Positions 1 through 55,721 of a stretch of 55,721 bases of DNA are shown in pieces; the first letter of the stretch is position 1, and every line of letters starts with the position of its first letter. The DNA is taken from IMG/VR virus record IMGVR_UViG_3300038958_000005, positions 1 through 55,721 of that record; one strand, given 5' to 3'. The notes under the pieces were generated by a model. It saw nothing but the letters and a program-made list of their open reading frames with translations. It searched no databases and was not told the DNA's origin. Both the position numbers and the translations under genes were made by a program. The DNA comes from a virus.

Positions 1-234
1 CCCGCCCCGCCCGGCCGCCTGTCCTTCACCGGACTGTCACCATTCTGCAACCGTCTCGTCATCGGTTCGTCACCGTTCACTTGATACGCCGGTCCGATGC
101 TGATGTCGTGCATGTTCGCCGTCCCTCTCTCTAGGTTATAGACCCGGTCGCCCGGTCATCGGGTGACCCGTTGCCCCGATACGCTGATGCGCCGATGCTT
201 CATCGATGCTGCACCGATGCCCCGGTCAACGCGG
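1..234. other. GC-rich non-coding end
   Basis: No convincing gene is seen. The DNA is GC-rich and low in complexity, with the word GATGC repeated about every ten bases between roughly 190 and 226. A phrase near 57-80 (tcatcggttcgtcaccgtt) recurs in varied form near 8570 and 9170. If the molecule is circular, this tract joins 55662-55721 to make about 290 bases of non-coding DNA between the left operon's last gene and the right-end tail-family gene. Confidence 0.6.
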
Positions 235-507
235 TTAACGACGGTTGAGCGCATCTAGCTTATCTTCCCAGATTCGTTCAACGAACGTCGGATACGGTGC
301 CGGGGGTCCGTTGCCCCTATCCTGCCAGTGTCTGACGATACCCGATTCGGTGATGCACGTACAACGTAGGCCGCCCGATATCTCGCAGGGTATCAGCGCC
401 CGGCGGCATGCGGTGCAATACCACCGGCCGCCGTAGCGGATACTGCGAGTGCGCCGGAATAGTGACAACGCGGCCTTGAGTTCACCGGCCATGTCAATCT
501 TTGGCAT
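235..507 (-). CDS. Cys-rich small protein, putative zinc binder
   Basis: This 90-aa protein has a CxxC pair at residues 31-34, further cysteines at 41, 49 and 51, and His60 after a short linker, so a zinc-binding knuckle is likely. It is the last gene of the left operon. The start is placed at the ATG at 507, just after the stop of the upstream gene at 546. The frame stays open to 678, but that extension overlaps a better Cys-rich gene in another frame and its sequence is arginine/glycine/proline low-complexity. No family is recognised. DNA or RNA binding is possible but not shown. Confidence 0.6.
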   Translation of the reverse strand: MPKIDMAGELKAALSLFRRTRSIRYGGRWYCTACRRALIPCEISGGLRCTCITESGIVRHWQDRGNGPPAPYPTFVERIWEDKLDALNRR

Positions 508-545
508 CCAGCGAACCTGCCACGGCCGATAGATGCCCGCGTCCC

Positions 546-734
546 TCAATTCTTGGGGCACTGATGCGCCCGGATTGCCCGGTCCACGCGTTCCCGGCGT
601 TCGGTGTGACGCTGATAATCCGAAACGTCTAGCACCGGTTCGTGATGCACGATTGCCTGGCATGCTTTGCACCTCCACCTATGGGCTATCAGTCTCTTGC
701 GCCGCCGGATAGGTTCGTAAACGATAGTCGGCAT
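546..734 (-). CDS. Cys/His small basic protein
   Basis: This 62-aa protein is basic. It has a CxxC pair (C22, C25) followed by a His pair (HH, 30-31), a later His and a C-terminal HQC, which could make a small zinc site. It starts at the ATG at 734 and overlaps the end of the upstream Cys-rich gene by 46 bases, an unusually long overlap with no good ribosome site, so the exact start is uncertain. No family is recognised. Position and cysteine pattern suggest it belongs with its neighbours as a set of small zinc proteins. Confidence 0.5.
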   Translation of the reverse strand: MPTIVYEPIRRRKRLIAHRWRCKACQAIVHHEPVLDVSDYQRHTERRERVDRAIRAHQCPKN

Positions 735-1069
735 GTAGTCAGTCCGTCGATAATGTCCGTTATCGCGCCCCTCACATGATCGATTAGTTGCTTGCGTAGA
801 TCATCATCGGTACGCCTGCCCGAAGGCATCCACCCGCAAGAACACTTGACCCGTACGCGTTCGAACAGCGGATGCTTGCGTAGGGTCACAACGTGACCGT
901 AACCGAGAAAGTAGGTGATGCGCTTGCGTGACCACCGGCGAGGAATGCGGGCCCTGTACCATCGCGGGAAGTACGCCCGGATATGACTTAACGCTTCGTT
1001 GCGGTCCACGAATCGATGACCGCATAGGCACCACTCGGTATTTAACGGCCAATGTTCATCCTTCGCCAT
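689..1069 (-). CDS. Putative zinc-binding protein, 126 aa
   Basis: The protein has an N-terminal CLCGH motif (residues 14-18) followed by a His, and a second CSCGW motif near residue 80 in a basic background, consistent with two half-sites of a zinc fold. Its middle is rich in Arg, Tyr and Trp. The start ATG at 1069 has only a weak GGGCGA site upstream. It lies between two other Cys-containing small genes in the same operon. I do not recognise a family. A nucleic-acid-binding role would fit the charge but is inference. Confidence 0.6.
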   Translation of the reverse strand: MAKDEHWPLNTEWCLCGHRFVDRNEALSHIRAYFPRWYRARIPRRWSRKRITYFLGYGHVVTLRKHPLFERVRVKCSCGWMPSGRRTDDDLRKQLIDHVRGAITDIIDGLTTCRLSFTNLSGGARD

Positions 1070-1118
1070 TCGCCCGGTCCACGCCTATCGCATGTACGCC
1101 TACGCCTAGACCTACAAC

Positions 1119-1268
1119 CTATCGTTTACGGTCACGTGATACGGCCGCCGTATGACCGCATGTTAGGAACACGGCGACGTATCCTGTTCGCAACATTCGA
1201 ACCTTCGGTTTTCCAGCCTCTAGCACGGGTTCGCGCTCATACCCGCAACGCCTACAGTACCACGTCAC
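1119..1268 (-). CDS. Mini zinc-ribbon protein (49 aa)
   Basis: A very short protein with CRRCGYE near the N-terminus and TCGH near the C-terminus, giving a CxxC...CxH pattern typical of a treble-clef or ribbon zinc site. The chosen start is a GTG at 1268, seven bases after a good GGGGGTGA ribosome site that begins right after the stop of the last tail-family gene. A longer open frame upstream would overlap that gene antiphase and has no supporting site. It ends in basic residues (RDRKR). It is the first of four small Cys-rich genes at the operon's end. Confidence 0.6.
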   Translation of the reverse strand: MTWYCRRCGYEREPVLEAGKPKVRMLRTGYVAVFLTCGHTAAVSRDRKR

Positions 1269-1285
1269 GGTTTCATCACCCCCTA

Positions 1286-1495
1286 CTACTTGATGCGTAT
1301 CCCGCAGTGCACAAGGCGTACGTCTACGTTGCGGGATAGGGTCATTACCACCGCCGGGCGTACTGTCGCGTCGGTGTACCAATACATCCAAAGGATGCGC
1401 CCGTTGGAAGTCCGTATCCCCCACTCGCAGATAGGTTCCCACTTGCCACTGCGCCAATTGATGTTGTTCGTCCAAAGCGGGAGTATGGCCTGCAT
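1286..1495 (-). CDS. hRhK-tail small protein, member 15
   Basis: This 69-aa protein has the family's aromatic core as WMYWY near residue 40 and the exact C-terminal tail GIRIK. The N-terminal half carries several Trp residues, more than most members. The start ATG at 1495 follows a GGGGCC site and lies 10 bases after the upstream member's stop. No cysteine motif, signal peptide or membrane segment is seen. It is the last member before the operon switches to Cys-rich genes. Function unknown. Confidence 0.75.
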   Translation of the reverse strand: MQAILPLWTNNINWRSGKWEPICEWGIRTSNGRILWMYWYTDATVRPAVVMTLSRNVDVRLVHCGIRIK

Positions 1496-1505
1496 TGTAC
1501 GGCCC

Positions 1506-1700
1506 CTATTTCAACCGCATCATACAAAGTTTCCTGTTGGTGAATAGGATACGCCCGGCATCATTGACGATTCGGCCCGGCGGCCCGGTATCGGAACGCC
1601 AATATGCCAGTGACGAATAGTAGCCGTCATGGTTGAGCACCACGAACACGTCGCCCCGTACGTTAACCCAGATAGGATTGTTCCAGCTTGAACCGCTCAT
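1506..1700 (-). CDS. hRhK-tail small protein, member 14
   Basis: This 64-aa protein begins MSGSSWNN, has a first hydrophobic strand GDVFVVLN, the core LAYWR near residue 37, and ends MMRLK. The ATG at 1700 was preferred over an upstream GTG at 1715 because GAGGGG sits at a good distance before it, and the GTG would place the site inside the gene. Between core and tail is a Gly/Pro-rich turn. It follows member 13 by 11 bases. Confidence 0.75.
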   Translation of the reverse strand: MSGSSWNNPIWVNVRGDVFVVLNHDGYYSSLAYWRSDTGPPGRIVNDAGRILFTNRKLCMMRLK

Positions 1701-1711
1701 GAACCGGCCCC

Positions 1712-1888
1712 TCACTTGAGGCGTAGGGCTAATCGGCCGTAGTACAGCATGATATCCTGATGCGTAATGCTTACTTCCGGGTCTACGGAATAATGACGTA
1801 GCCAGTACACCACGTTCAACAAATCATCGCCCATATCCCGGATATAGTACACGTCGCGCCTATCGTTCGAAGCGATGAATGTTCTCAT
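1712..1888 (-). CDS. hRhK-tail small protein, member 13
   Basis: At 58 aa it is too short for many gene callers. It is a clear paralogue of member 12: both have an R-D-[VI]-YY strand, a leucine-rich step, the core VVYWL (VLYML in member 12), an I-M/I-x-Y strand and the tail LRLK. Its start ATG overlaps the stop of member 12 in an ATGA arrangement, and the AGG in member 12's tail codons sits where a ribosome site would be, so translation is probably coupled. Confidence 0.78.
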   Translation of the reverse strand: MRTFIASNDRRDVYYIRDMGDDLLNVVYWLRHYSVDPEVSITHQDIMLYYGRLALRLK

Positions 1889-2064
1889 TTCAGCCTCAAT
1901 AGGCAACGGCCGCAGTCATACATGATAATCGGCCGCCGTACCGTCGGATATCGGAATTTCGGCGATACCGGTATTTCATACAGCATGTACAGCACGCCTA
2001 GCATTTCCGTATCTGTTACCAGATAGTAGATATCCCGGTTATCGGTGAATCCAACGCTAATCAT
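1885..2064 (-). CDS. hRhK-tail small protein, member 12
   Basis: This 59-aa protein starts MISVGFTDNRD and ends LLRLK. The shorter start at 2064 is preferred over a start at 2127 because it forms an ATGA overlap with member 11 and gives almost the same length as its paralogue member 13. The core motif is VLYML. Two cysteines (DCGRC) near the end are not in a family-wide position. Function unknown. Confidence 0.75.
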   Translation of the reverse strand: MISVGFTDNRDIYYLVTDTEMLGVLYMLYEIPVSPKFRYPTVRRPIIMYDCGRCLLRLK

Positions 2065-2312
2065 TTCAGCACTATCGAACGGACGAATTTCCCGGAAGGT
2101 ATCGTAATCAGCACCGCGATAGCGCACCTTGTTGTACCGTGCACCGACACGCGGGCCGTTTCCTGTTGTTCATGATTCGCGGCCAAGATATAAAAGTCAT
2201 AACATACGCCGGACTTACACTCTAGGTAGTAGATGCGCGGCCCGATGCACTTAACACGCATTTCCGGGGTCAGCGCCGCCGTGTTCGTGTCGCCCTTACT
2301 TGACGCGAACAT
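2061..2312 (-). CDS. hRhK-tail small protein, member 11 (divergent tail)
   Basis: This 83-aa protein has the family pattern RIYYL then YDFYI, but its C-terminus reads SIVLK. The usual Arg is replaced by Val while hydrophobic-Lys is kept, so it is the only member without a basic residue at the -3 position. The ATG at 2312 has a GGGGGC site six bases upstream and overlaps the end of member 10 by 17 bases. The N-terminal 20 residues are polar and probably flexible. Confidence 0.68.
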   Translation of the reverse strand: MFASSKGDTNTAALTPEMRVKCIGPRIYYLECKSGVCYDFYILAANHEQQETARVSVHGTTRCAIAVLITIPSGKFVRSIVLK

Positions 2313-2502
2313 AGATAGCCCCCACGAACGCGTTGTTTCGCATCGGGGAATAGACCAATACCGCGGACTCCGATAAACCTTGCCTTACACGCGGCCGGTT
2401 CACCGCGAACGAATGGCCGTAGATTGTGGTAGTCTTCCACCCGTACGTCATCAGATAGTCGCCGCGGTCACTGTAGATATCAGGTCTGACTTCGCTTTGC
2501 AT
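2296..2502 (-). CDS. hRhK-tail small protein, member 10
   Basis: This 68-aa protein has TTTIYGH as its core and ends AIYVRVK. The C-terminal third (AVLVYSPMRNN...YVRVK) resembles that of member 16 at the far right end of the window (AVVMG...MRNEAYVRVK), so these two form a subgroup although they lie in DNA of different composition. The start at 2502 is set by a GAGGGT site five bases upstream. A start further upstream would run into member 9. Confidence 0.75.
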   Translation of the reverse strand: MQSEVRPDIYSDRGDYLMTYGWKTTTIYGHSFAVNRPRVRQGLSESAVLVYSPMRNNAFVGAIYVRVK

Positions 2503-2509
2503 GGTACCC

Positions 2510-2728
2510 TCACTTGATGCGCAATGATGCCTGCCTATCATCATTCCCGGTACGGTGCAGGTTGATCCATACATAACCGATGTTATCGTTTAACTCTACT
2601 GACGGTCCAAAATCTGGAGCCGCATACACCGCCGGGTGGATCAACAAGTACACCACCAATGTTGACCCGTCAACGTCAAAATAGCATACGTCGCCCTTCG
2701 GTTCAATGCTGATAGATTGCTGACTCAT
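2510..2728 (-). CDS. hRhK-tail small protein, member 9
   Basis: This 72-aa protein is a close paralogue of member 8, of the same length: both share Y/F-x-V-D-G, a VVY or TVY core, then GYVW[IM]-x-L-x-R-x-x-N and the tail ASLRIK. The ATG at 2728 follows a GGGGGC site. Upstream in-frame starts exist but would overlap member 8's coding end in another frame. The whole protein alternates hydrophobic and polar residues as expected for beta strands. Confidence 0.8.
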   Translation of the reverse strand: MSQQSISIEPKGDVCYFDVDGSTLVVYLLIHPAVYAAPDFGPSVELNDNIGYVWINLHRTGNDDRQASLRIK

Positions 2729-2747
2729 CGCGTAAGCCCCCGCCCGG

Positions 2748-2966
2748 TCACTTGATGCGCAATGATGCCCGGCTAATGCCGTTCGCGTCACGGAATAGGT
2801 GCATCCATACGTAGCCTCTAGGCCATGTAATCCACGGCGGATTGTGTGGTCTGACGCTTGACGTGTAGACGGTGAACAACGCGCCGCCGTCCACTTGCAG
2901 ATAATAATCATTCGGGTATGCCACTATCGCCTGATGCATTGCCGCCGCCCGATTAGTCTGATTCAT
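2748..2966 (-). CDS. hRhK-tail small protein, member 8
   Basis: The start at 2966 gives 72 aa, exactly the length of its paralogue member 9. An ATG nine bases upstream is also possible. The core is FTVYT and the C-terminal half GYVWMHLFRD...ASLRIK is nearly that of member 9. The last 14 bases of the codirectional small membrane-protein gene overlap its 5' end. The last nine codons are almost base-identical in members 8 and 9, which points to a recent duplication. Confidence 0.78.
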   Translation of the reverse strand: MNQTNRAAAMHQAIVAYPNDYYLQVDGGALFTVYTSSVRPHNPPWITWPRGYVWMHLFRDANGISRASLRIK

Positions 2967-3138
2967 CGCGTTCATCCCGCGCCATTGTTGCATTGACCGC
3001 GCACGCTGTCAAGTACACCGCCGTCCACACGACCGAAACAGCGGCGATGATACGCATATCGCCCGTCATCACCGCGCCGCCCAATACCACCATGACTACC
3101 ATCCAGATAACCCACCGAATGAATGTTTCGTGTCGCAT
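2953..3138 (-). CDS. Small two-helix membrane protein
   Basis: This 61-aa protein has two hydrophobic segments (about residues 8-24 and 29-48), with a short GDMR link between them and an acidic tail RDERDESD. A hairpin in the inner membrane with both ends on the same side is likely. The start ATG at 3138 has a GAGGAAC site. It sits inside the tail-protein array, between members 7 and 8, and overlaps member 8 slightly. No family is recognised. It might anchor or regulate the small proteins, which is inference only. Confidence 0.65.
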   Translation of the reverse strand: MRHETFIRWVIWMVVMVVLGGAVMTGDMRIIAAVSVVWTAVYLTACAVNATMARDERDESD

Positions 3139-3148
3139 CGGTTGTTCC

Positions 3149-3400
3149 TCACTTGACCCGCAGGCCCGTTGTATCCAGTAGCAACATCACGGCGTTCGAT
3201 TTCTTCGGCGGATAGGTTCGATATTGCCGACGTTCACCGGTTAGCCAGTACAGCCAGAAGGCGTCATTGCGGTTTAGACACATAACGTATGTGACCCAAC
3301 AGGTTCCATTACACCGTCCAATATGTGATTCGATTCGCGGGTACCCGTCGTGGCTTAACGGTCCTAGGATATCGAACAGTGGCACATTCGCTGACTGCAT
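3149..3400 (-). CDS. hRhK-tail small protein, member 7
   Basis: This 83-aa protein is a clear paralogue of member 6: both have YPRI, a Cys about ten residues on, [ST]Y[VI]M, NR, WLYWL as the core, a Pro step, VML, and a terminal hydrophobic-R-[VI]-K. The start ATG at 3400 overlaps the stop of the zinc-ribbon gene (TGATG) and follows a GGGGGTGA site. It has about ten extra N-terminal residues compared with member 6. Confidence 0.8.
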   Translation of the reverse strand: MQSANVPLFDILGPLSHDGYPRIESHIGRCNGTCWVTYVMCLNRNDAFWLYWLTGERRQYRTYPPKKSNAVMLLLDTTGLRVK

Positions 3401-3855
3401 CAATTCACCCCCGCCGAATTGCTAGGCTTAGAGGCGTTACCTAGTACTGAGCGAAGGGCTTTATCCGCGTTACGTTCGCATTCGATAACATCGCCTTCGC
3501 TAAGTTCTACAGGTTTGACCGCTACAACATGGAATGTGAACACGCCCCACGGGGCGATGAGGCTAGTATTGCATTCAGGGCAAATAATATCGCCCCATTC
3601 CTCATCATAAGCCCCGTCGGTGTTACACGCGCTACAACGCACTGCGCTTTCCACCTTATCAATGAACCGGGCGAATTCTATGTCGCGCATGGCCTTTGCC
3701 CATCGGCTAGCCAAACGGTAGTTATCCGCCTTGACCAATAGGTCAAGGTCCGGTCGCGCAGATTCTGCCCGTCCGACTTGCACCCTAAACAGCATATTCC
3801 TTGAACCCCCTTTGTCTAGACTGTTTTCAGTCCGCGCATCATTGATTAACTGCAT
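3400..3855 (-). CDS. Zinc-ribbon protein, 151 aa
   Basis: The middle of this protein holds CSAC and CPEC pairs about 18 residues apart, a standard zinc-ribbon spacing, flanked by an alpha-helical N-terminal region rich in Arg and Asp and a beta-like C-terminal part ending in a Ser/Asn-rich tail. The start ATG at 3855 has a strong GGGGGTGA site. It interrupts the tail-protein array between members 6 and 7 and lacks the family's C-terminal tail. A nucleic-acid-binding role is plausible from the ribbon. No specific family is recognised. Confidence 0.7.
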   Translation of the reverse strand: MQLINDARTENSLDKGGSRNMLFRVQVGRAESARPDLDLLVKADNYRLASRWAKAMRDIEFARFIDKVESAVRCSACNTDGAYDEEWGDIICPECNTSLIAPWGVFTFHVVAVKPVELSEGDVIECERNADKALRSVLGNASKPSNSAGVN

Positions 3856-3874
3856 CGATTCACCCCCACCGGTT

Positions 3875-4096
3875 TTACTTTATGCGCATGGCCCGATACG
3901 GGGCCGATAGCATCACCGAATCGCTTTCCCTCAAAGGGCTTATCACGTGTTCCCGGCGGCCGTGTAGCCAGTACAGCCAGAGGGCGTAATCGCGGTTCAT
4001 CCACATGATGTATGACGCCCGGCAGATTCGGCTATGCCGGTCAATATCTACCGCGATTCGCGGATAGTCCGTCGCCTTATTCCTCGCCCGGTTCAT
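3875..4096 (-). CDS. hRhK-tail small protein, member 6
   Basis: This 73-aa protein ends AMRIK and has the core LWLYWL, almost the same as member 7. Other shared points are YPRI, a conserved Cys, SYIM, NRDYA and SVML. The start ATG at 4096 has a perfect GGGGGTGA site three bases upstream, the clearest example of this operon's ribosome site. A 120-base gap without a supported gene separates it from member 5. Confidence 0.8.
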   Translation of the reverse strand: MNRARNKATDYPRIAVDIDRHSRICRASYIMWMNRDYALWLYWLHGRREHVISPLRESDSVMLSAPYRAMRIK

Positions 4097-4218
4097 TGTT
4101 CACCCCCGGATACCCTAACCGATGCTAGCACCCCCAAAGCGTTCGCGCAACTGCCGGACAGTGAATTATCGGTTACAGGGTGTTCGATGCCCGGCGTCGC
4201 GCCGATTCGGCTGCCCGG

Positions 4219-4398
4219 CTACTTGAGTCTTAGGCATCCCCTGTTACTCCGAAACTCTACGCCGTACGGTTCCTGATGAATGTTAGGCCGGGGTTCGGAA
4301 CCGTTGCTTATCCAGTAGACCCACATATCGAACAACGTTCCCTTGAGTATCCATATCGCCCGTTCATCGCTAGGCCGAAATGTAAACCGGTTGACCAT
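4219..4398 (-). CDS. hRhK-tail small protein, member 5 (59 aa)
   Basis: I translated this gene directly from the minus strand because it is under 60 codons. It begins MVNRFTFRPSDERAIW, has the core MWVYWIS near residue 26, and ends NRGCLRLK followed by TAG. A GGGGGTT site lies upstream. The last 20 residues closely match a broken copy directly upstream at 4414-4476. The peptide is rich in Trp and Arg and has one Cys next to the tail. Confidence 0.75.
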   Translation of the reverse strand: MVNRFTFRPSDERAIWILKGTLFDMWVYWISNGSEPRPNIHQEPYGVEFRSNRGCLRLK

Positions 4399-4413
4399 CG
4401 CATTAACCCCCGG

Positions 4414-4476
4414 TCACTTTATCTTGATGCACCCCCTGTTACTCCGAAACTGTATGCCGCGCACTTCCCGATGCAC
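4414..4476 (-). pseudogene. Relic of a tail-family gene
   Basis: Only the last 20 codons of a family gene remain: VHREVRGIQF then RSNRGCIKIK and TGA. Compared with the end of member 5 (IHQEPYGVEF, RSNRGCLRLK) it is clearly a duplicate, with seven consecutive identical residues including the Cys before the tail. No ATG or aromatic core is in frame upstream, although a GTG exists at 4476 and a 20-aa peptide could be made. The most likely reading is a truncated tandem copy left by recombination. Confidence 0.65.
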
Positions 4477-4486
4477 CCGGCCCCGG

Positions 4487-4690
4487 TCATTTCAGCTTGA
4501 GTTCTAACGCGTGACCGCGCGGCCGCTTGACCGCCGTAGCGTACACGCTACCGTCGGCGTTGACCTTGAGCTGGCTAGACCCGTTCGTTTGCCAGAAACG
4601 GCAATAGACCCAGTAAGACTGCCCCCTATCCGGCAAGTACGCCCGAATCCAGCCCTCAACCGTAATTCGTATACCCATTTCCGGGTTCAT
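4487..4690 (-). CDS. hRhK-tail small protein, member 4
   Basis: This 67-aa protein ends ELKLK, so the basic residue in its tail is Lys rather than Arg. It is paralogous to member 3: W[IV]-x-AY-x-PD, the core WVY, then DGxVYA and a basic stretch. The ATG at 4690 follows GGGGTGA. Tail codons differ from those of member 3, so the match is at protein level. Confidence 0.78.
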   Translation of the reverse strand: MNPEMGIRITVEGWIRAYLPDRGQSYWVYCRFWQTNGSSQLKVNADGSVYATAVKRPRGHALELKLK

Positions 4691-4702
4691 CGGTCACCCC
4701 GC

Positions 4703-4912
4703 TTACTTTAGCTTTAGGCGTAGTAGCCGCAGTACCCGTGATTGTTTGGTCAACGCCGCGGCATACACGCCATCCTTGCCGATTTCAATGCCGCCTTCCC
4801 CCGGTGCCCCGCTGAAACATGTGTACACCCACCAAAACATTCCGTTCACGTCCGGGGCATACGCCAACACCCACTCGTGGATGACGATATTCAGTCCGGC
4901 GTTTCCGTTCAT
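4703..4912 (-). CDS. hRhK-tail small protein, member 3
   Basis: This 69-aa protein has the core FWWVYT and an extended tail LLRLLRLKLK in which the hydrophobic-basic alternation is repeated. Members 2, 3 and 4 form a subgroup with a G/E-W strand, an NG or DG turn and a Y-rich strand before the tail. The start at 4912 is chosen because a GGAG site lies eight bases upstream. A GTG further up (4930) would overlap member 2. Confidence 0.77.
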   Translation of the reverse strand: MNGNAGLNIVIHEWVLAYAPDVNGMFWWVYTCFSGAPGEGGIEIGKDGVYAAALTKQSRVLRLLRLKLK

Positions 4913-4926
4913 CGATGCGACTCCGG

Positions 4927-5154
4927 TCACTTTAGCCTGACGGCTATTTGACGGCCTGCCATACCTATGACGAAATCCACCGTACCGTTCGTGTATACCC
5001 TGAATTCCGTAGTGTTCCCGCGTACGGCCCGGTGGAAGTACAGCCAGTACCGGCCGTTGCCCGCCTTAGTCATCGCCCAGCCGTGCGAATAGCCGACGAT
5101 CTTCGATCCGAACGAATAGCTGATGGTGCCGCCAAAGATTCGTGGTTCGTTCAT
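4927..5154 (-). CDS. hRhK-tail small protein, member 2
   Basis: This 75-aa protein has the core RYWLYF and ends IAVRLK. Its start ATG overlaps the TGA of member 1 (AAAATGA), with no strong separate ribosome site, so it is probably translated by coupling. The body is Gly-rich with TEFRVYTNGTV, matching the DG/NG turn of members 3 and 4. Confidence 0.77.
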   Translation of the reverse strand: MNEPRIFGGTISYSFGSKIVGYSHGWAMTKAGNGRYWLYFHRAVRGNTTEFRVYTNGTVDFVIGMAGRQIAVRLK

Positions 5155-5411
5155 TTTATCCGCATCCAAACGTCCCTGCCCGTGTTCCCGGCGTATCGGG
5201 TGCGAATGCTGACCGTTGACCGGGGCCGGAGGCCTATCATGAGCACGTTCGGTGATTCAACCCATCGCCGGTACTGTACCCAGTTCGACCAATACACCCG
5301 GCTAATGTACACCCGTTCGGAGCCGTTCACCCGGTACAGGTTGAATTCGTCAACCGGTGGGACTGTAGACCATACCCCCGGATTACGCTTAACCTCTACG
5401 TCTCGGTACAT
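5151..5411 (-). CDS. hRhK-tail small protein, member 1
   Basis: This is the first and longest member (86 aa), directly downstream of the MoxR-type ATPase gene with a 13-base gap. It starts at the ATG at 5411 after an AGGGGCTGGGGTA stretch. The core reads RVYISRVYWSNW, and the protein ends DVWMRIK. Long in-frame extension upstream would overlap the ATPase gene antiphase and is rejected. Rich in Arg, Val and Trp, with no Cys. Confidence 0.77.
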   Translation of the reverse strand: MYRDVEVKRNPGVWSTVPPVDEFNLYRVNGSERVYISRVYWSNWVQYRRWVESPNVLMIGLRPRSTVSIRTRYAGNTGRDVWMRIK

Positions 5412-5424
5412 TACCCCAGCCCCT

Positions 5425-6675
5425 TTACTTTGTCCGCCGTGACCCGGACCGCTTGCCAGCGCGCCCGGTCGTGTACTTGCCCGGCACGGGAACAGCCACC
5501 GCATCCTTGACGGGTTCGTCGGTGACCGGGTCCACGTCATAGACCTTGACCGTCGGCGTTTCGCCTTTGCTAAGGGCGATGGACGCATCGATCAGTTCGC
5601 CCTTGAGTTCGCCGTTCTCCTCATAGTAGATGCCGTGGCGCTCAAGAATGCCCGCGAACCGTTCGGCAACGCTATCGCATGACCTAAAGAATGACTCAAG
5701 GCCTGCGGTCAGCGGCGCTTCGTACCACGCCCGGCGGAACGTCGGGTAGTACGCCTGAAACCGCGTAATGGCCAACAGTCCGCGAAGCCGGGCCGTATCG
5801 TCGGCCGTAGTCAGCGCCTGTAGTAGGCCTTCGAAGTAGCCCACCATTTCAAGGTCATTGTGGCCCACCTGTTCGTACACCTGAAACACAAAGTTCGGGT
5901 CAGCCAGCGCCCAACTGGGATCGATGCGTTGCATCATGGTATCCACGGCGGCCGCCGGCAAGAATGACCGCAGAATCAGCCGTTGGGCGTCAGCGCTCAA
6001 TCCGTAGAACGCCGGGTTGATGAGTTCGCGCGCGGCCGCGATTTCGGCGGCCGTCACCCATTCCGCATCAGGCGGCGGTTCGGGTGACCATTCGCGACTC
6101 GCCCACGTTTCCGTTGGTTCGACCGGGGCCGTGGTAGCCAGTAGGCGCGCCATGGCGTGGTCACCGGCCACTTCGATCAGGTCTTCGCGTTCGGGCACAA
6201 CGTGAAATGTGAGCACGCGGGTTCGGAGGCCGCCGTCCATATCGAACGGATTCGTCGCCCCGATGATGTACCACTCACTGCCCCGCGCGGGCATTTCCAC
6301 GTTGAGTAGCTTATTACCCCGAATCAGCCCGTACAACGTGGACACTACCGAACCCCCGGCGTTCGCCGCTTGCCCCACTTCGTCAAGGAACAGCACCGTG
6401 CGCTTGCCCTTCGCGGCGTTGTCAAGCACCGTACGTGCCCATTCGGGCAACGCCCAACGAATCTGCCCGTCTACTTCGATAGGGAAGCCGCAGATTTCGT
6501 GTGGATTCTGCGTTGCCAGATACAGGTAGAGGATATCGGCGTCCAATTCCCGCGCAATTTCCGTTGCTAGGTACGTCTTCCCTGCGCCCGTCGGCCCCCA
6601 CAACAGCGGGGCACGCGTTCGGGCGTGAGTCATTGCGTGCATCACGGCCTGTTTAATGGCGTCGCGTCGCGTCAT
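5425..6675 (-). CDS. MoxR-type AAA+ ATPase
   Basis: This 416-aa protein has Walker A GPTGAGKT at residues 27-34, Walker B TVLFLDEV at 93-100 and the sensor GATNP at 139-143, then a helical C-terminal lid. The short segment before Walker A and the spacing fit MoxR/dynein-like AAA+ ATPases. Such ATPases work with VWA-domain partners to remodel or mature protein complexes, and the gene next door encodes just such a partner. The ATG at 6675 follows a GGGGGTAAC site, two bases after the partner's stop. The C-terminal 30 residues are a basic extension (ending GSRRTK), unlike the tail family's hRhK end. Confidence 0.9.
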   Translation of the reverse strand: MTRRDAIKQAVMHAMTHARTRAPLLWGPTGAGKTYLATEIARELDADILYLYLATQNPHEICGFPIEVDGQIRWALPEWARTVLDNAAKGKRTVLFLDEVGQAANAGGSVVSTLYGLIRGNKLLNVEMPARGSEWYIIGATNPFDMDGGLRTRVLTFHVVPEREDLIEVAGDHAMARLLATTAPVEPTETWASREWSPEPPPDAEWVTAAEIAAARELINPAFYGLSADAQRLILRSFLPAAAVDTMMQRIDPSWALADPNFVFQVYEQVGHNDLEMVGYFEGLLQALTTADDTARLRGLLAITRFQAYYPTFRRAWYEAPLTAGLESFFRSCDSVAERFAGILERHGIYYEENGELKGELIDASIALSKGETPTVKVYDVDPVTDEPVKDAVAVPVPGKYTTGRAGKRSGSRRTK

Positions 6676-6676
6676 G

Positions 6677-7885
6677 TTAGTTACCCCCTGCGTCAACGAT
6701 TGTTACCGACTTCCACGGCGGCGTATTCCCGGCCCCGGTCCGAATCCAAAGCACCGGAACGCCCGGATCATCGGGCCAGTCAAGGTAGCCGTCCGTGATA
6801 AGTACCAGACCGTCCGGGCGGTATTGCATCGCCCGGTCAATCAGCGGCTTTATGTCAGTGCCGCCGCTACCCGTAAGTGTTCGGGGCACTGCGTGTGCCG
6901 CCGTAATCTCAACGTCAAGCGTGACTTCGGTATCGCCCGCGATAAGCCGAACCGGCGTCGCGCGCGATGCAATGGCCTTTACGGCCGCGATAGCCTGCGC
7001 TAGGTCTTCGGCCTGCATCGATCCTGACGTGTCAAGCACCATCACCAAATGCCGCCGCATCGGGGCCCACGTCAACCGCCGCGTTGGCAGAATCACGCCG
7101 TACCGACGCGGTACGCGCGCGGGCCGGTTGATAGCATCGGCCGTTTCAAGCGTGAACCGCCGGTACGCCGTCAGCCAGCGCCGGGTCAGTTTGACCCACG
7201 CAGGCGTCCGAGATTCGGGTATGTCAATCGTCGCGGCTCCGGCGGTCAGTCCGTGTCCGAATCCGGCGGCCGCCTGTTTGCCCGCCGCGTCGGCGTACTG
7301 CGACGCCGCGATGCTAGCCGCGATGCTTGCCATCGGGTCATCCGTCGGTTCGATGCCCCCACAGAGGCCATCGGGCAATAGCCCGCCGTCATTGCCCGGT
7401 TCACCGTTGCCCGATGCACCACTGCCGCCCGTTTGCTCATGCATGGCCCGGTGCACCGCGACATAGTGCGGCGTGTCAAGTTTCAAGGCCTCTAGATATT
7501 CCACGGGGTCAACCGGCCGGTGCACGGCCCGCTTGAGCGCCTCAAACCGTTCGCGCCCAATGGCGGCGTTCACGTGTACATCCGTTGCGATGAGCATGCA
7601 CTCGCGGCCATGATGCGCCGCTTCGTCGGCGTCTACCTGAAAGTGTCCGAGTAGCACGTGCCCTAGCTCATGCCAAAGCACCGCCCGGATCACTTCCGGG
7701 TCCTCAAATTCAGGGCTGATGTATACCGTCCAAAGGCGCTTTGTTTTATCCCATACCGTCGCGGCCTTCGCCGGAATGCCGAAGTCGGCGGGGTTACGCG
7801 CGACAAGCTCAATCTGCGCCGCTCCGGTCAGTAGGCGCTTTTGAATGTCATCAGCCGCGTTGAGAATATCGTTCACCGTCGCCAT
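6677..7885 (-). CDS. Metallopeptidase-like / VWA domain protein (DUF2201-type)
   Basis: This 402-aa protein has an N-terminal zinc-peptidase-like domain with HELGH at residues 72-76, a Gly/Ala-rich linker (about 150-215) and a C-terminal VWA domain. The VWA domain has a MIDAS motif DTSGS at 285-289, GGTD at 341-344 and ITDGY at 363-367. This order matches the DUF2201 putative metallopeptidase plus VWA-like pair that accompanies MoxR ATPases in bacteria and some phages. The start at 7885 is preferred because AGGGTC lies just upstream. A GTG at 7945 has no ribosome site. Both catalytic and metal-binding motifs look intact. Confidence 0.88.
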   Translation of the reverse strand: MATVNDILNAADDIQKRLLTGAAQIELVARNPADFGIPAKAATVWDKTKRLWTVYISPEFEDPEVIRAVLWHELGHVLLGHFQVDADEAAHHGRECMLIATDVHVNAAIGRERFEALKRAVHRPVDPVEYLEALKLDTPHYVAVHRAMHEQTGGSGASGNGEPGNDGGLLPDGLCGGIEPTDDPMASIAASIAASQYADAAGKQAAAGFGHGLTAGAATIDIPESRTPAWVKLTRRWLTAYRRFTLETADAINRPARVPRRYGVILPTRRLTWAPMRRHLVMVLDTSGSMQAEDLAQAIAAVKAIASRATPVRLIAGDTEVTLDVEITAAHAVPRTLTGSGGTDIKPLIDRAMQYRPDGLVLITDGYLDWPDDPGVPVLWIRTGAGNTPPWKSVTIVDAGGN

Positions 7886-7962
7886 GGTGACCCTATCGTC
7901 GCATAGCCGCCGGGGGAAGTCAAGGGCCCCGACGGGCTCATTCACCGAATCTTTACAATTTT

Positions 7963-8175
7963 CTACGCGTGGCGGTCACCGGTCCGACGCGCCGGGCGCG
8001 CCGCTACTACGGCATCCAGCCGCTCAATCAGCCGCAGTAGCGCGGCTAGCAACGGTTCGGGCCCGTTGCCGTCAAACTGCGCCTCTAGCGCGCCCTCGGA
8101 CGTTGCGAATTCCACCCAACGGTGCAACCCGGCCGCGATATCGGCCAATTCGCGATTCACGTTCGCGTTCGCCAT
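7963..8175 (-). CDS. Small helical protein, first gene of left operon
   Basis: This 70-aa protein begins MANANVNRELADIAAG and is mainly alpha-helical, with an amphipathic leucine-rich stretch (LLAALLRLIERL) and a basic C-terminus. The ATG at 8175 is five bases after a perfect GGGGGTGA site and about 30 bases after a promoter, so it is the leading gene of the operon that carries the VWA/MoxR pair. No family is recognised. It could be a regulator or accessory of that pair. Confidence 0.7.
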   Translation of the reverse strand: MANANVNRELADIAAGLHRWVEFATSEGALEAQFDGNGPEPLLAALLRLIERLDAVVAARPARRTGDRHA

Positions 8176-8204
8176 TGCATTCACCCCCTATGTTGTCCGT
8201 GCCT

Positions 8205-8233
8205 ACTCTAGCATGCCGGGTGCAGTAGGGCAA
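8205..8233 (-). promoter_or_regulatory. Extended -10 promoter for the left operon
   Basis: On the minus strand TTGCCC (-35, 4 of 6) and TAGAGT (-10, 4 of 6) are separated by exactly 17 bases, and the -10 is preceded by TGC, an extended -10. The expected start is about 20 bases upstream of the first gene's GGGGGTGA site. It faces away from the plus-strand gene at 9921. Confidence 0.55.
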
Positions 8234-9400
8234 GTATTTGGCCCCCGGCGCGGTCCATGATTCGGCGGCCCCGTGCATACGGCGGCGGTCTTCTCGGACG
8301 CCGGGCCCGGTATTCGCCCGTTGCCCGCGCGCGCCGGGCGTGCATTTCTGACCGCGTCGGCGTCCCCCTCTAGGCCCCGTTTCGGCCCGGTACCGGCGCA
8401 CGATTCGGCCCCGCTTTGGCCCCGCTTTTAGGCCCGCTTTAGCCCCCGCTTTGCCGCTACGTTGGCCCCCGCTTTAGCCCCGATACGGCCGTCCGATGCG
8501 TCGCCGATGCGTCTCCGTTGCGCCGCCGTTGCGCCGCCGTTGTTGCCCCGATGCATTGCCCCGATTTCGTCATCGATTCGTCACCATTTCGTCACTTTGG
8601 GTTCATGCGCGGGTTATCTTCGAACCCAAAGCCCCCCATCGCGCCCTATCGATGCCAAATTCGCCGATGCGTGCGCCGCCCCGCCGATGCGCCGCCAATG
8701 CATGCGCGCGCTACTGATTCGCCGCCGGGCCCGTCGATTCGCCGTCACGCTGATATGCGGCCGGTTCGCTATGCCGTATCGTGCCGCCGATGTAGTGCGT
8801 TAACGGTTCGCCCGGCGTCAGCGGTTCGCATCGGTTTCGTCGCGGGTACGTTGGCGGTTCATCATCAACGGCGCGGCCCCCGGTTCGTCGCCGATGCGAC
8901 GCCGCACTGGATGCATCCGCCGATTCGCCGGTTGCCCGATACGCGCCCGATGCGCCGCTACGCCGGTTCGGCCGCGATGCACCGCCCGGTTCACGGTGCA
9001 TGCCCACGCGCGCGTTGTCGGTTCGGCCCCCGGCTTTATCCCTATTCGGCCCGGCGCGTTCCCTCTATGCGCGGCCCGGCGGGCGCCGGGTAGTGCGTCA
9101 GCGGTTCGTCGGCGGTTCGGCGGTTCGGCGTGGGCGTGGGCGTGGGCGCCGCCCGCGCGCCCGTCACGTCATCGGTTCACCGTTGGCCGTTCGCCGATTA
9201 CGCGCCCGTGCATTACCGCCGCATTGCCGCCGCCCTTCGCCTTATGCCCCGACGCCCTCCCAAAGTGCCCTATCCCCTCCGAATCCCCGAATCGCTCGTG
9301 TTCGAAGTAACAACGCTACATACCCCCAGAAGTGCCCAAGCGAGCGGGGCCGGGGGCCAGCGCCCACGAGCGCCGGAGTGACGGTGACGGTCATATACCC
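8234..9400. other. Long GC-rich non-coding tract
   Basis: More than 1.1 kb with no supported gene. The sequence is a patchwork of short GC-rich words (GATGC, GCCGCC, GGTTCG, GCCCG) on the plus strand. Long open frames occur in several frames at once, as expected in DNA that is poor in TA and AT, and their products are Arg/Pro/Ala-rich low-complexity. No ribosome site precedes any of them. It lies between divergent units (left operon and plus-strand gene) and may hold an origin or control region. Confidence 0.55.
9326..9337 (+). repeat. Direct repeat at edge of the GC-rich island, left copy
   Basis: The 12-mer ccagaagtgccc here is repeated in the same orientation at 55688-55699. The two copies lie at the two edges of the GC-rich block if the molecule is circular. 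They could mark a recombination or attachment site, or be a coincidence. Confidence 0.4.
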
Positions 9401-9686: not shown

Positions 9687-9746
9687 AGTATCGTGCAAAG
9701 TATCGTACAAAGCATCGTGCAAAGTATAGGAGTAAGTATAGTGCGT
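9687..9746 (+). repeat. 12-bp tandem repeat array A
   Basis: Five consecutive 12-bp units, AGTATCGTGCAA, AGTATCGTACAA, AGCATCGTGCAA and two more divergent copies beginning AGTATAG. The phase continues with small slips into array B. The units resemble binding-site iterons. Confidence 0.85.
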
Positions 9747-9769
9747 AGGTATGGATATCAGTATACTCT

Positions 9770-9877
9770 GGTCCAGACCGAGGTCTAGCGATAAGTCTAG
9801 CATTAGGTATAGACCACAGTCTAGACCTTGGTATAGACCTTGGTATAGACCTTAGTCTAGACCTTGGTATAGACCTA
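9770..9877 (+). repeat. 12-bp tandem repeat array B
   Basis: Nine exact-phase 12-bp units (108 bases) with consensus RGTMTAGACCTT. Two units contain the palindrome GTCTAGAC and four read GTATAGAC. The first three units are more divergent. It ends 29 bases before the ribosome site of the plus-strand zinc-finger gene, a natural place for an operator or an origin. Confidence 0.9.
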
Positions 9878-9920: not shown

Positions 9921-10472
9921 ATGATGCAGATTTGCAAGAACGACCGATGCTCGAACATCGTCATGCCTAACGAGAAGGGTAGACCCAAGCTCTTCTGCTC
10001 CGCTCGATGCAGGAGGAGATATTACTCAAGACGCGAATACCAGACGCTTTTCGGTAACGGTCTGATGATGATCGATGAGAAGAACAGGCCGAAGATCAAC
10101 AGGACGCTCTCCAGAACAGCTGAGGAGGCTGCCAGGCGCTACAAGAAGCATCTGGACGACTGCCCACTGTATAGAGGACCATGCCCCGGCAGATATGACC
10201 CTCACGGCCAGCAGAAGCGTTGTCTGATCGCTGCTGTGCTCGCAGACGACTGGAGATACCTGCTTCAGCTAGAAGGAGGTGTCATGAAGCCCAGGAGGTC
10301 TTCTACGAGCGTTTCTGGCTACTGGCTGTCCGACCTCACTCCAGAAGAGATAAAGGAGGAAGAGAAACGATTTGGCAGGAGGTATTCGAGTTACTACAAC
10401 TTCACCGATACCCAGCTACAGAGACTTAGAGAGGTCGGCTTCTTCAACCCGGTAGAGGAGCTTCCGGAGTAG
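9921..10472 (+). CDS. Zinc-finger protein, sole plus-strand gene
   Basis: This 183-aa protein has an N-terminal zinc site C5-x4-C10...C26-x3-C30 followed by a very basic RRRYYSRR helix, the layout of small DNA-binding fingers. The rest is charged and helical with a further Cys/His group (CPLYRGPC) near residue 65. A strong GAGGAGG ribosome site lies seven bases before the ATG. It is divergent from the left operon, convergent with the membrane-protein genes, and directly downstream of two 12-bp repeat arrays, so it may bind them as a regulator or replication initiator. The same finger pattern heads the phosphoesterase at 39711-40940. Confidence 0.75.
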   Translation: MMQICKNDRCSNIVMPNEKGRPKLFCSARCRRRYYSRREYQTLFGNGLMMIDEKNRPKINRTLSRTAEEAARRYKKHLDDCPLYRGPCPGRYDPHGQQKRCLIAAVLADDWRYLLQLEGGVMKPRRSSTSVSGYWLSDLTPEEIKEEEKRFGRRYSSYYNFTDTQLQRLREVGFFNPVEELPE

Positions 10473-54994: not shown

Positions 54995-55336
54995 CTATAG
55001 ATTGCCGCTTCTCAATTCGAGTACTATATCTTCGTTGACATACACCATCCTCGCTCTCTCAATCCTATCGGCCAGTGACGGCGAAATCGTCACGACCTCT
55101 TCGAACAGGTTGATATCCGATCGAGATAGAAGACGACGACCGCAACTGATGCAGAAGATCGTTCCATCTCTATCGATACCCCCTGATCCACACAACGGGC
55201 ACACCATTCCAAATTCCAGCATGGTGAAGACATCATCTAATGCCTGATTCTTCGTGATCTCATTGTGTATTAGCCATCGACCGATTGGTTGTTCATCATC
55301 TACAGTTGTTAACGTGATAAGTCTGGCGGTGTTCAT
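54995..55336 (-). CDS. Zinc-ribbon protein, 113 aa
   Basis: It has a clear CPLC (residues 46-49) and CISC (62-65) pair, a standard zinc ribbon. The N-terminus is helical with a Trp-rich segment, and the C-terminus is a helix with SPSLADRIERA. GGAGATTCGAG precedes the ATG. The gene lies directly after the tRNA and might be a transcription or replication factor of the phage. Confidence 0.65.
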   Translation of the reverse strand: MNTARLITLTTVDDEQPIGRWLIHNEITKNQALDDVFTMLEFGMVCPLCGSGGIDRDGTIFCISCGRRLLSRSDINLFEEVVTISPSLADRIERARMVYVNEDIVLELRSGNL

Positions 55337-55436: not shown

Positions 55437-55661
55437 TTACTTCACGCGAACGTACGCTTCATTGCGCATCCTGCCCGTAATGAAACCCATGACGACTGCG
55501 CCACTCGTCAGGTCTTCACTTTCTGGATGAATAACGATCTTGGCCGCATCGGGAATTGATGGACTGTATGGAAGGTTCATCGACTTCGAACGCCAATATA
55601 CCATTTTCATCCATCCGCCCAACGATCGTTGTTTGACGAAGGATGAGGGCTTGACAACCAT
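55437..55661 (-). CDS. hRhK-tail small protein, member 16 (outlying)
   Basis: This 74-aa protein carries the same two family marks: the core MVYWRS near residue 20 and the tail AYVRVK. Its last third resembles member 10. The start at 55661 gives a core position like other members, but a closer ATG at 55610 cannot be ruled out and no strong ribosome site is seen. Unlike the other members it lies in DNA with the composition of the right-hand genome, next to the tRNA. Confidence 0.65.
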   Translation of the reverse strand: MVVKPSSFVKQRSLGGWMKMVYWRSKSMNLPYSPSIPDAAKIVIHPESEDLTSGAVVMGFITGRMRNEAYVRVK

Positions 55662-55721
55662 CCTCGCGCTACGCGGCCCCGGAGACTCCAGAAGTGCCCG
55701 CGCCCGCGCCCCGCGCCCGCG
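55662..55721. other. GC-rich non-coding window end
   Basis: After the tail-family gene the DNA turns suddenly GC-rich and ends in a repeated cccgcg stretch. No gene is seen. The window end looks like a low-complexity break rather than a biological end. Confidence 0.5.
55688..55699 (+). repeat. Direct repeat at edge of the GC-rich island, right copy
   Basis: The same 12-mer, ccagaagtgccc, as at 9326-9337 and in the same orientation. It lies where the composition changes to GC-rich. Confidence 0.4.

Follow-up and report, generated by a model that had tools for sequence, protein, structure and literature searches.

Dense runs of tiny genes are common in phages and mostly unexplained. The host-takeover and early modules of phages such as SPO1 are dense runs of small genes and, to our knowledge, collections of different proteins. 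Ubiquitin, a small modifier with a beta-grasp fold that includes a helix, has the C-terminus LRLRGG and ends in Gly-Gly. In archaeal viruses, anti-defence clusters hold small variable genes that have a common upstream regulatory sequence and presumably target the host at an early stage (PMC11065993), and jumbo phages of group 2.2 encode pairs of MoxR and von Willebrand factor A (VWA) proteins with a metallopeptidase domain, chaperone-cochaperone systems for which a role in virion assembly, and peptidolytic processing, have been proposed (PMC7824862). Here we describe an array of 15 minus-strand genes at positions 1286–5411 of the IMG/VR virus record IMGVR_UViG_3300038958_000005, all 55,721 nucleotides of which were analyzed (the window). 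In this array one short protein end is frozen while the bodies of the proteins drift.

A constant C-terminal tail

The 15 genes (58–86 codons) are tightly packed in the order g1 (5151–5411) to g15 (1286–1495). Fourteen of their products close with a hydrophobic residue, Arg or Lys, a second hydrophobic residue and Lys (the tail), and g11 (2061–2312) ends in IVLK instead. A 74-codon open reading frame (ORF) at the other end of the window (55437–55661, minus strand; 57 codons from an internal ATG) has MVYWRS as its core and closes with YVRVK. It lines up with the other members at the Tyr and at the tail and is probably a sixteenth member (g16); it is called probable rather than certain because an isolated end of this kind is not very rare in a genome of this size, and its body alone was missed by the leave-one-out profile described below. 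When each of the 16 proteins was shuffled in 20,000 trials, the number carrying a tail had a mean of 0.016 and a maximum of 2, compared with 15 of 16 observed. When the window was read in all six frames over its full length, the tail stood directly before a stop codon at 16 sites. Each of these is on the minus strand and none is background: 14 array genes, g16 and a relic of g5 (4414–4428). An earlier note on this DNA had described product ends of just this form (once VLK) and an aromatic Tyr core in every product, and both descriptions held: in the 16-row alignment that it had proposed, the final Lys and the core Tyr (hydrophobic-Tyr-[W/hydrophobic]) are invariant.

Conservation of the tail acts on the protein and not on the DNA, because codons and stops vary while the residues stay. 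Lys precedes the stop in 16/16 members and is encoded by both AAA and AAG, all three stop codons occur, the basic position is encoded by CGG, CGC, AGG, AGA or AAG, and the hydrophobic positions are encoded by many codons. No member (0/16) has extra residues after the final Lys. A translational-coupling signal or ribosome site was considered and ruled out because the non-family genes of the same operon (the zinc-ribbon, membrane and MoxR genes described below) lack the tail, while family genes keep it, with varying codons, in every downstream setting: ahead of another member, ahead of an unrelated gene, and where a tRNA or 122 nt of non-coding DNA comes next.

From its upstream end, the array begins with g1 (86 amino acids, tail WMRIK) and g2 (4927–5154; 75 amino acids, AVRLK), the ATG of which overlaps the g1 stop as ATGA, followed by g3 (4703–4912; 69 amino acids, RLKLK) and g4 (4487–4690; 67 amino acids, ELKLK). 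At 4414–4473 on the same strand lies a duplicated 3′ portion of g5 that has decayed (HREVRGIQFRSNRGCIKIK followed by a stop), 75% identical over 65 nt at the DNA level, in which the tail is retained; alternatively, this could possibly be a 20-codon minigene starting with GTG. Next are g5 (4219–4398; 59 amino acids, CLRLK) and g6 (3875–4096; 73 amino acids, AMRIK), then a minus-strand zinc-ribbon gene that is not a member (3400–3855; ends SAGVN, weak Pfam and PHROG matches), g7 (3149–3400; 83 amino acids, GLRVK), a second minus-strand non-member that reads from its sequence as a membrane protein with two transmembrane helices (2953–3138; ends RDESD), g8 (2748–2975; 75 amino acids, SLRIK), g9 (2510–2728; 72 amino acids, SLRIK) and g10 (2296–2502; 68 amino acids, YVRVK). 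The weakest member, g11 (83 amino acids, or 66 if started at Met18; SIVLK), is followed by g12 (1885–2064; 59 amino acids, LLRLK), g13 (1712–1888; 58 amino acids, ALRLK), g14 (1506–1700; 64 amino acids, MMRLK) and g15 (69 amino acids, GIRIK). The g11/g12 and g12/g13 junctions are also ATGA overlaps. The ORF finder places starts too early for some array genes, and for the gene at 1885 a start at 2064 is likelier given its ATGA overlap. Most intergenic gaps are too small to hold separate promoters, and the family proteins are mostly basic (isoelectric point at least 8.9 in 12/16).

The layout given in the earlier note, 15 minus-strand genes of 58–86 codons broken by one membrane and one zinc-ribbon gene, was thus recovered in full, and the array is interrupted at these two places only. 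Its extent of 1286–5411 takes in all 15 genes, to which the g5 relic is added inside and the probable g16 outside. The suggestion that the family may be unfamiliar since several of its genes are too short for common gene callers is not supported, as genes of 58–86 codons are within reach of ordinary gene callers and size alone is no explanation.

Diverged bodies and their predicted fold

Bodies were compared with the tails removed, using Smith-Waterman z scores and a leave-one-out profile with realignment against shuffled bodies. Four sister pairs were identified (g6/g7, z = 21.3; g3/g4, z = 15.7; g12/g13, z = 6.3; g8/g9, z = 5.5), and 18 of the 120 pairs reached p < 0.05, with 6 expected. The leave-one-out profile recovered 9/16 members at p < 0.05, with about 1 expected; g9, though missed by the profile, is plainly a sister of g8. 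At the DNA level, two sister pairs and the g5 relic are repeats with 73–75% identity, and the uncorrected ratio of nonsynonymous to synonymous differences per site (pN/pS) in the four sister pairs is 0.61–0.70, in the direction of purifying selection. To judge from these comparisons, the bodies are distantly related and strongly diverged while the tail is held. The genes very probably form one paralogous family with a strict C-terminal tail, and single descent together with duplication is well supported. The earlier note's claim of a single family is supported by the sister pairs, the DNA duplicates, the recovery of members by the profile and the two structure models described next; it is weak for some members, such as g11 and g1, the bodies of which the profile did not recover.

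Structures were predicted for g13 and g4, as the earlier note had suggested for several members. The AlphaFold2 model of g13, made from the 16-row alignment, has a mean predicted local distance difference test score (pLDDT) of 80.9, a predicted template modeling score (pTM) of 0.41 and six strands in an all-beta meander (residues 3–7, 13–18, 23–29 with the VVYW core, 38–41, 46–50 and 53–57, the last being the tail). The AlphaFold model of g4, made from a three-row alignment, is also an all-beta meander, with five strands (pLDDT 66), one of them near the tail where local confidence is low. No helix was seen in either of these moderate-confidence predictions, the pTM values of which are 0.41–0.46. 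The predicted secondary structure, with the tail as the last strand of an all-beta fold, is credible, and the three-dimensional arrangement is tentative. Neither model significantly matched solved or viral structures: Foldseek gave nothing at E ≤ 0.001 (best PDB match E ≥ 0.38), and VIA structure comparison gave a Z of at most 2.4 for g13 and 3.0 for g4. Profile matches in the PDB to designed Pizza propellers (E = 0.4), Foldseek matches to propellers (E at least 0.38) and structural matches to the Mpa interdomain (Z = 2.4) were rejected as not significant.

On this basis we tentatively propose a docking-strand mechanism, in which a constant end is carried on variable bodies that interact with the host. 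The family is most likely lineage-specific, its small and mostly basic proteins are predicted to be all-beta, and it has grown by tandem duplication, with some copies decaying, in one apparent operon behind the MoxR and VWA-metallopeptidase genes. The bodies diverge and would contact different, changing targets of the host or of counter-defence, while the last beta-strand, which places Lys at the extreme C-terminus, stays constant. This common strand and its free Lys end would dock by beta-strand addition onto one partner or onto other members. A role in host takeover or counter-defence would fit because the genes are short, duplicating, decaying, mostly basic and orphan, as expected under changing selection; we hold such a role, like docking and a common partner, to be possible at less than even confidence. 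The family itself is most likely phage-specific and recently expanded.

The tail might instead be the closing beta-strand needed for folding or stability, with the final Lys aiding expression and the array serving as a gene-dosage or diversification cluster whose products have no common partner. In the g13 model the tail is indeed the last strand, and bacterial proteins show a 2.3-fold enrichment of Lys as their final residue, where it raises expression (PMC7246954). Such a bias is far below the 16/16 seen here and cannot yield it, nor the strict hydrophobic-R/K-hydrophobic pattern before the Lys. Additional residues could usually follow a closing strand, and none do in the 16 members; we regard this explanation as unlikely, though a serious competitor. 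The members might also co-assemble as donor-strand or propeller-like hetero-oligomers, with the tail and the Tyr core as common interface and the variable faces exposed. The all-beta meanders of g13 and g4 agree with this, and the best Foldseek matches, although insignificant, are to beta proteins that form oligomers or propellers (Ph1500, Bagel2); with no PDB match below E 0.38 and no VIA Z above 3.0, co-assembly appears improbable.

Operon, genome context and search for relatives

Directly upstream of g1, with 13 nt from its stop codon to g1, lies a minus-strand gene for a MoxR-type AAA+ ATPase (5425–6696; PF00004, 5.9e-10), which adjoins a minus-strand gene for a VWA-like DUF2201 protein (6677–7945; PF09967, 4.1e-20; phrog_1314, 6e-27). 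The two genes and the array appear to form one operon. The DUF2201 protein has an HELGH motif; for the N-terminal metallopeptidase domain expected in this type of pair, the matches were weak ones to M48 and SprT and one to phrog_87 (metallo-protease, 0.0012). Its family is labelled 'HNH endonuclease' by PHROGs and in several GenBank records, which looks like a naming error. MoxR/DUF2201 pairs are present in N4-like phages too.

The apparent operon raises the alternative that the MoxR and VWA/metallopeptidase proteins recognize the tail as a tag, with the small proteins as interchangeable adaptors or substrates that deliver host proteins. The pairs of jumbo phages, described as chaperone-cochaperone systems for which peptidolytic processing has been proposed (PMC7824862), would suit such a function; the published proposal concerns virion assembly rather than adaptors that direct an attack at the host, g16 is distant in window coordinates, and none of five other phages with the pair has tailed small genes, so that this alternative is quite improbable. 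A general tie of the tail to MoxR/DUF2201 is unsupported for the same five phages, because of which the link between array and pair is one of adjacency only. As a long shot, some 16 beta proteins could be interchangeable adaptors with differing target-binding bodies and one docking strand that a single machine of the phage, perhaps the neighbouring MoxR/VWA-metallopeptidase, would recognize; if so, new host targets would be gained by duplication and divergence of bodies with the tag fixed.

The remaining window is that of a tailed phage (terminase, capsid protein, polymerase, helicase, exonuclease). The first 9.4 kb differ from the rest in tetranucleotide signature, with a sharp switch near 9.5 kb (positions 1–9400 versus 10500–55400: AG/CT 0.63 versus 1.00, TA 1.09 versus 0.72), and GAG/CTC and GATC are strongly depleted in this left block. 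It is possible that the array block was recently acquired or that the contig is chimeric. The latter would make the array foreign to the phage, the first 9.4 kb of the contig being DNA of another element misjoined in assembly, which is compatible with any mechanism; besides the sharp switch, the fragment of a relative described below stops short of the array region. On the other side, the far end of the contig, in core-type DNA, carries g16, which has the core and tail of the family, and another zinc-ribbon gene (54995–55336), and the 12-mer CCAGAAGTGCCC is common to both edges (9326–9337 and 55688–55699; 3/100 shuffles reach two matches within one mismatch). We consider a misjoin rather unlikely. 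If the genome were circular, the two copies of CCAGAAGTGCCC would flank the left block and g16 would adjoin the array block.

Several other features were observed near these edges. The zinc-ribbon gene at 54995–55336 is weakly similar (E = 0.004) to that of the array and lies beside g16 and the tRNA-Met gene that g16 adjoins. GC-rich stretches without clear genes and rich in GCATCGG-like repeats occur at 8200–9340 and 100–230, near both sides of the left block. Just past the block edge, at 9687–9876, are iteron-like 12-bp tandem repeats, GGTATAGACC alternating with GGTCTAGACC, followed at 9921–10472 by a plus-strand gene, among almost exclusively minus-strand genes, the product of which has a cysteine-rich, zinc-finger-like start.

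To the extent searched, the family appears undescribed, with relatives in no collection. No Pfam-A or PHROGs family passed the threshold (best E 0.18 and 0.028, respectively, for single members only), and when the small proteins were joined for a tblastn search of phages and plasmids, only chance matches came back (E 2–8). Nothing was returned from IMG/VR when it was scanned with the alignments of g8/g9 and g6/g7 or with the MoxR and VWA proteins; these scans required exact matches of 7–8 residues and could miss distant relatives. A DNA pattern of three tails, tried with a single spacing range and AAGTGA as the only start word, found 55 stretches in 84,980 genomes, in none of which a strand had more than one tailed ORF. 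A capsid-based search for kin identified one relative, IMGVR_UViG_3300032163_000061, a 36 kb fragment that is largely syntenic with the window at 10.5–51 kb (capsid 81%, internal protein 59%); it has no tailed ORFs and ends before the array region. The capsid-based search in genomes gave no relative, an alignment search with the internal virion protein returned only the same fragment, and no described family of this kind was found in the literature.

The proposed docking strand among known systems

Several results weigh against a docking strand on host-interaction bodies. Tailed small proteins number 0/77 among the annotated small genes of the five other phages with the MoxR/DUF2201 pair. Relatives, of known function or otherwise, were not found within the limits of these searches in Pfam, PHROGs, PDB sequences, 50,697 phages, 72,556 plasmids, IMG/VR and 84,980 genomes. 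The bodies of g1, g9, g11 and g16 were clearly unrecovered by the leave-one-out profile and so are weak taken alone, and the pTM of the g13 model is only 0.41. A constant strand could also serve folding alone, which would explain the strand pattern and, less easily, the exact C-terminus of all members. The array also has a practical side: a frozen end against a drifting body separates a constant from a variable function, both of which can be tested with short peptides, and should the tail prove to be a docking tag, its sequence could be carried over as a signature with which to find other phages that use this logic.

Among described systems, N4-like phages and the jumbo phages of group 2.2 (PMC7824862) resemble this locus in having adjoining MoxR and DUF2201 genes with an HExxH motif, and the five MoxR/DUF2201 phages that were checked differ from it in lacking a tailed small-gene array beside the pair. 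The anti-defence clusters of archaeal viruses (PMC11065993) likewise group small variable viral genes, whereas the common feature here is a protein C-terminus and not an upstream regulatory sequence. Like ubiquitin, the family consists of small proteins with an end strand of alternating hydrophobic and basic residues; in contrast to ubiquitin, it has no terminal Gly-Gly and no helix in the predicted fold, and a ubiquitin-like modifier is ruled out by the ends of the members, all in Lys and none in Gly. With the host-takeover modules of phages such as SPO1, the locus has in common a dense co-directional run of tiny unannotated genes, but the array consists of paralogous genes whose products share a C-terminal strand that hardly varies.

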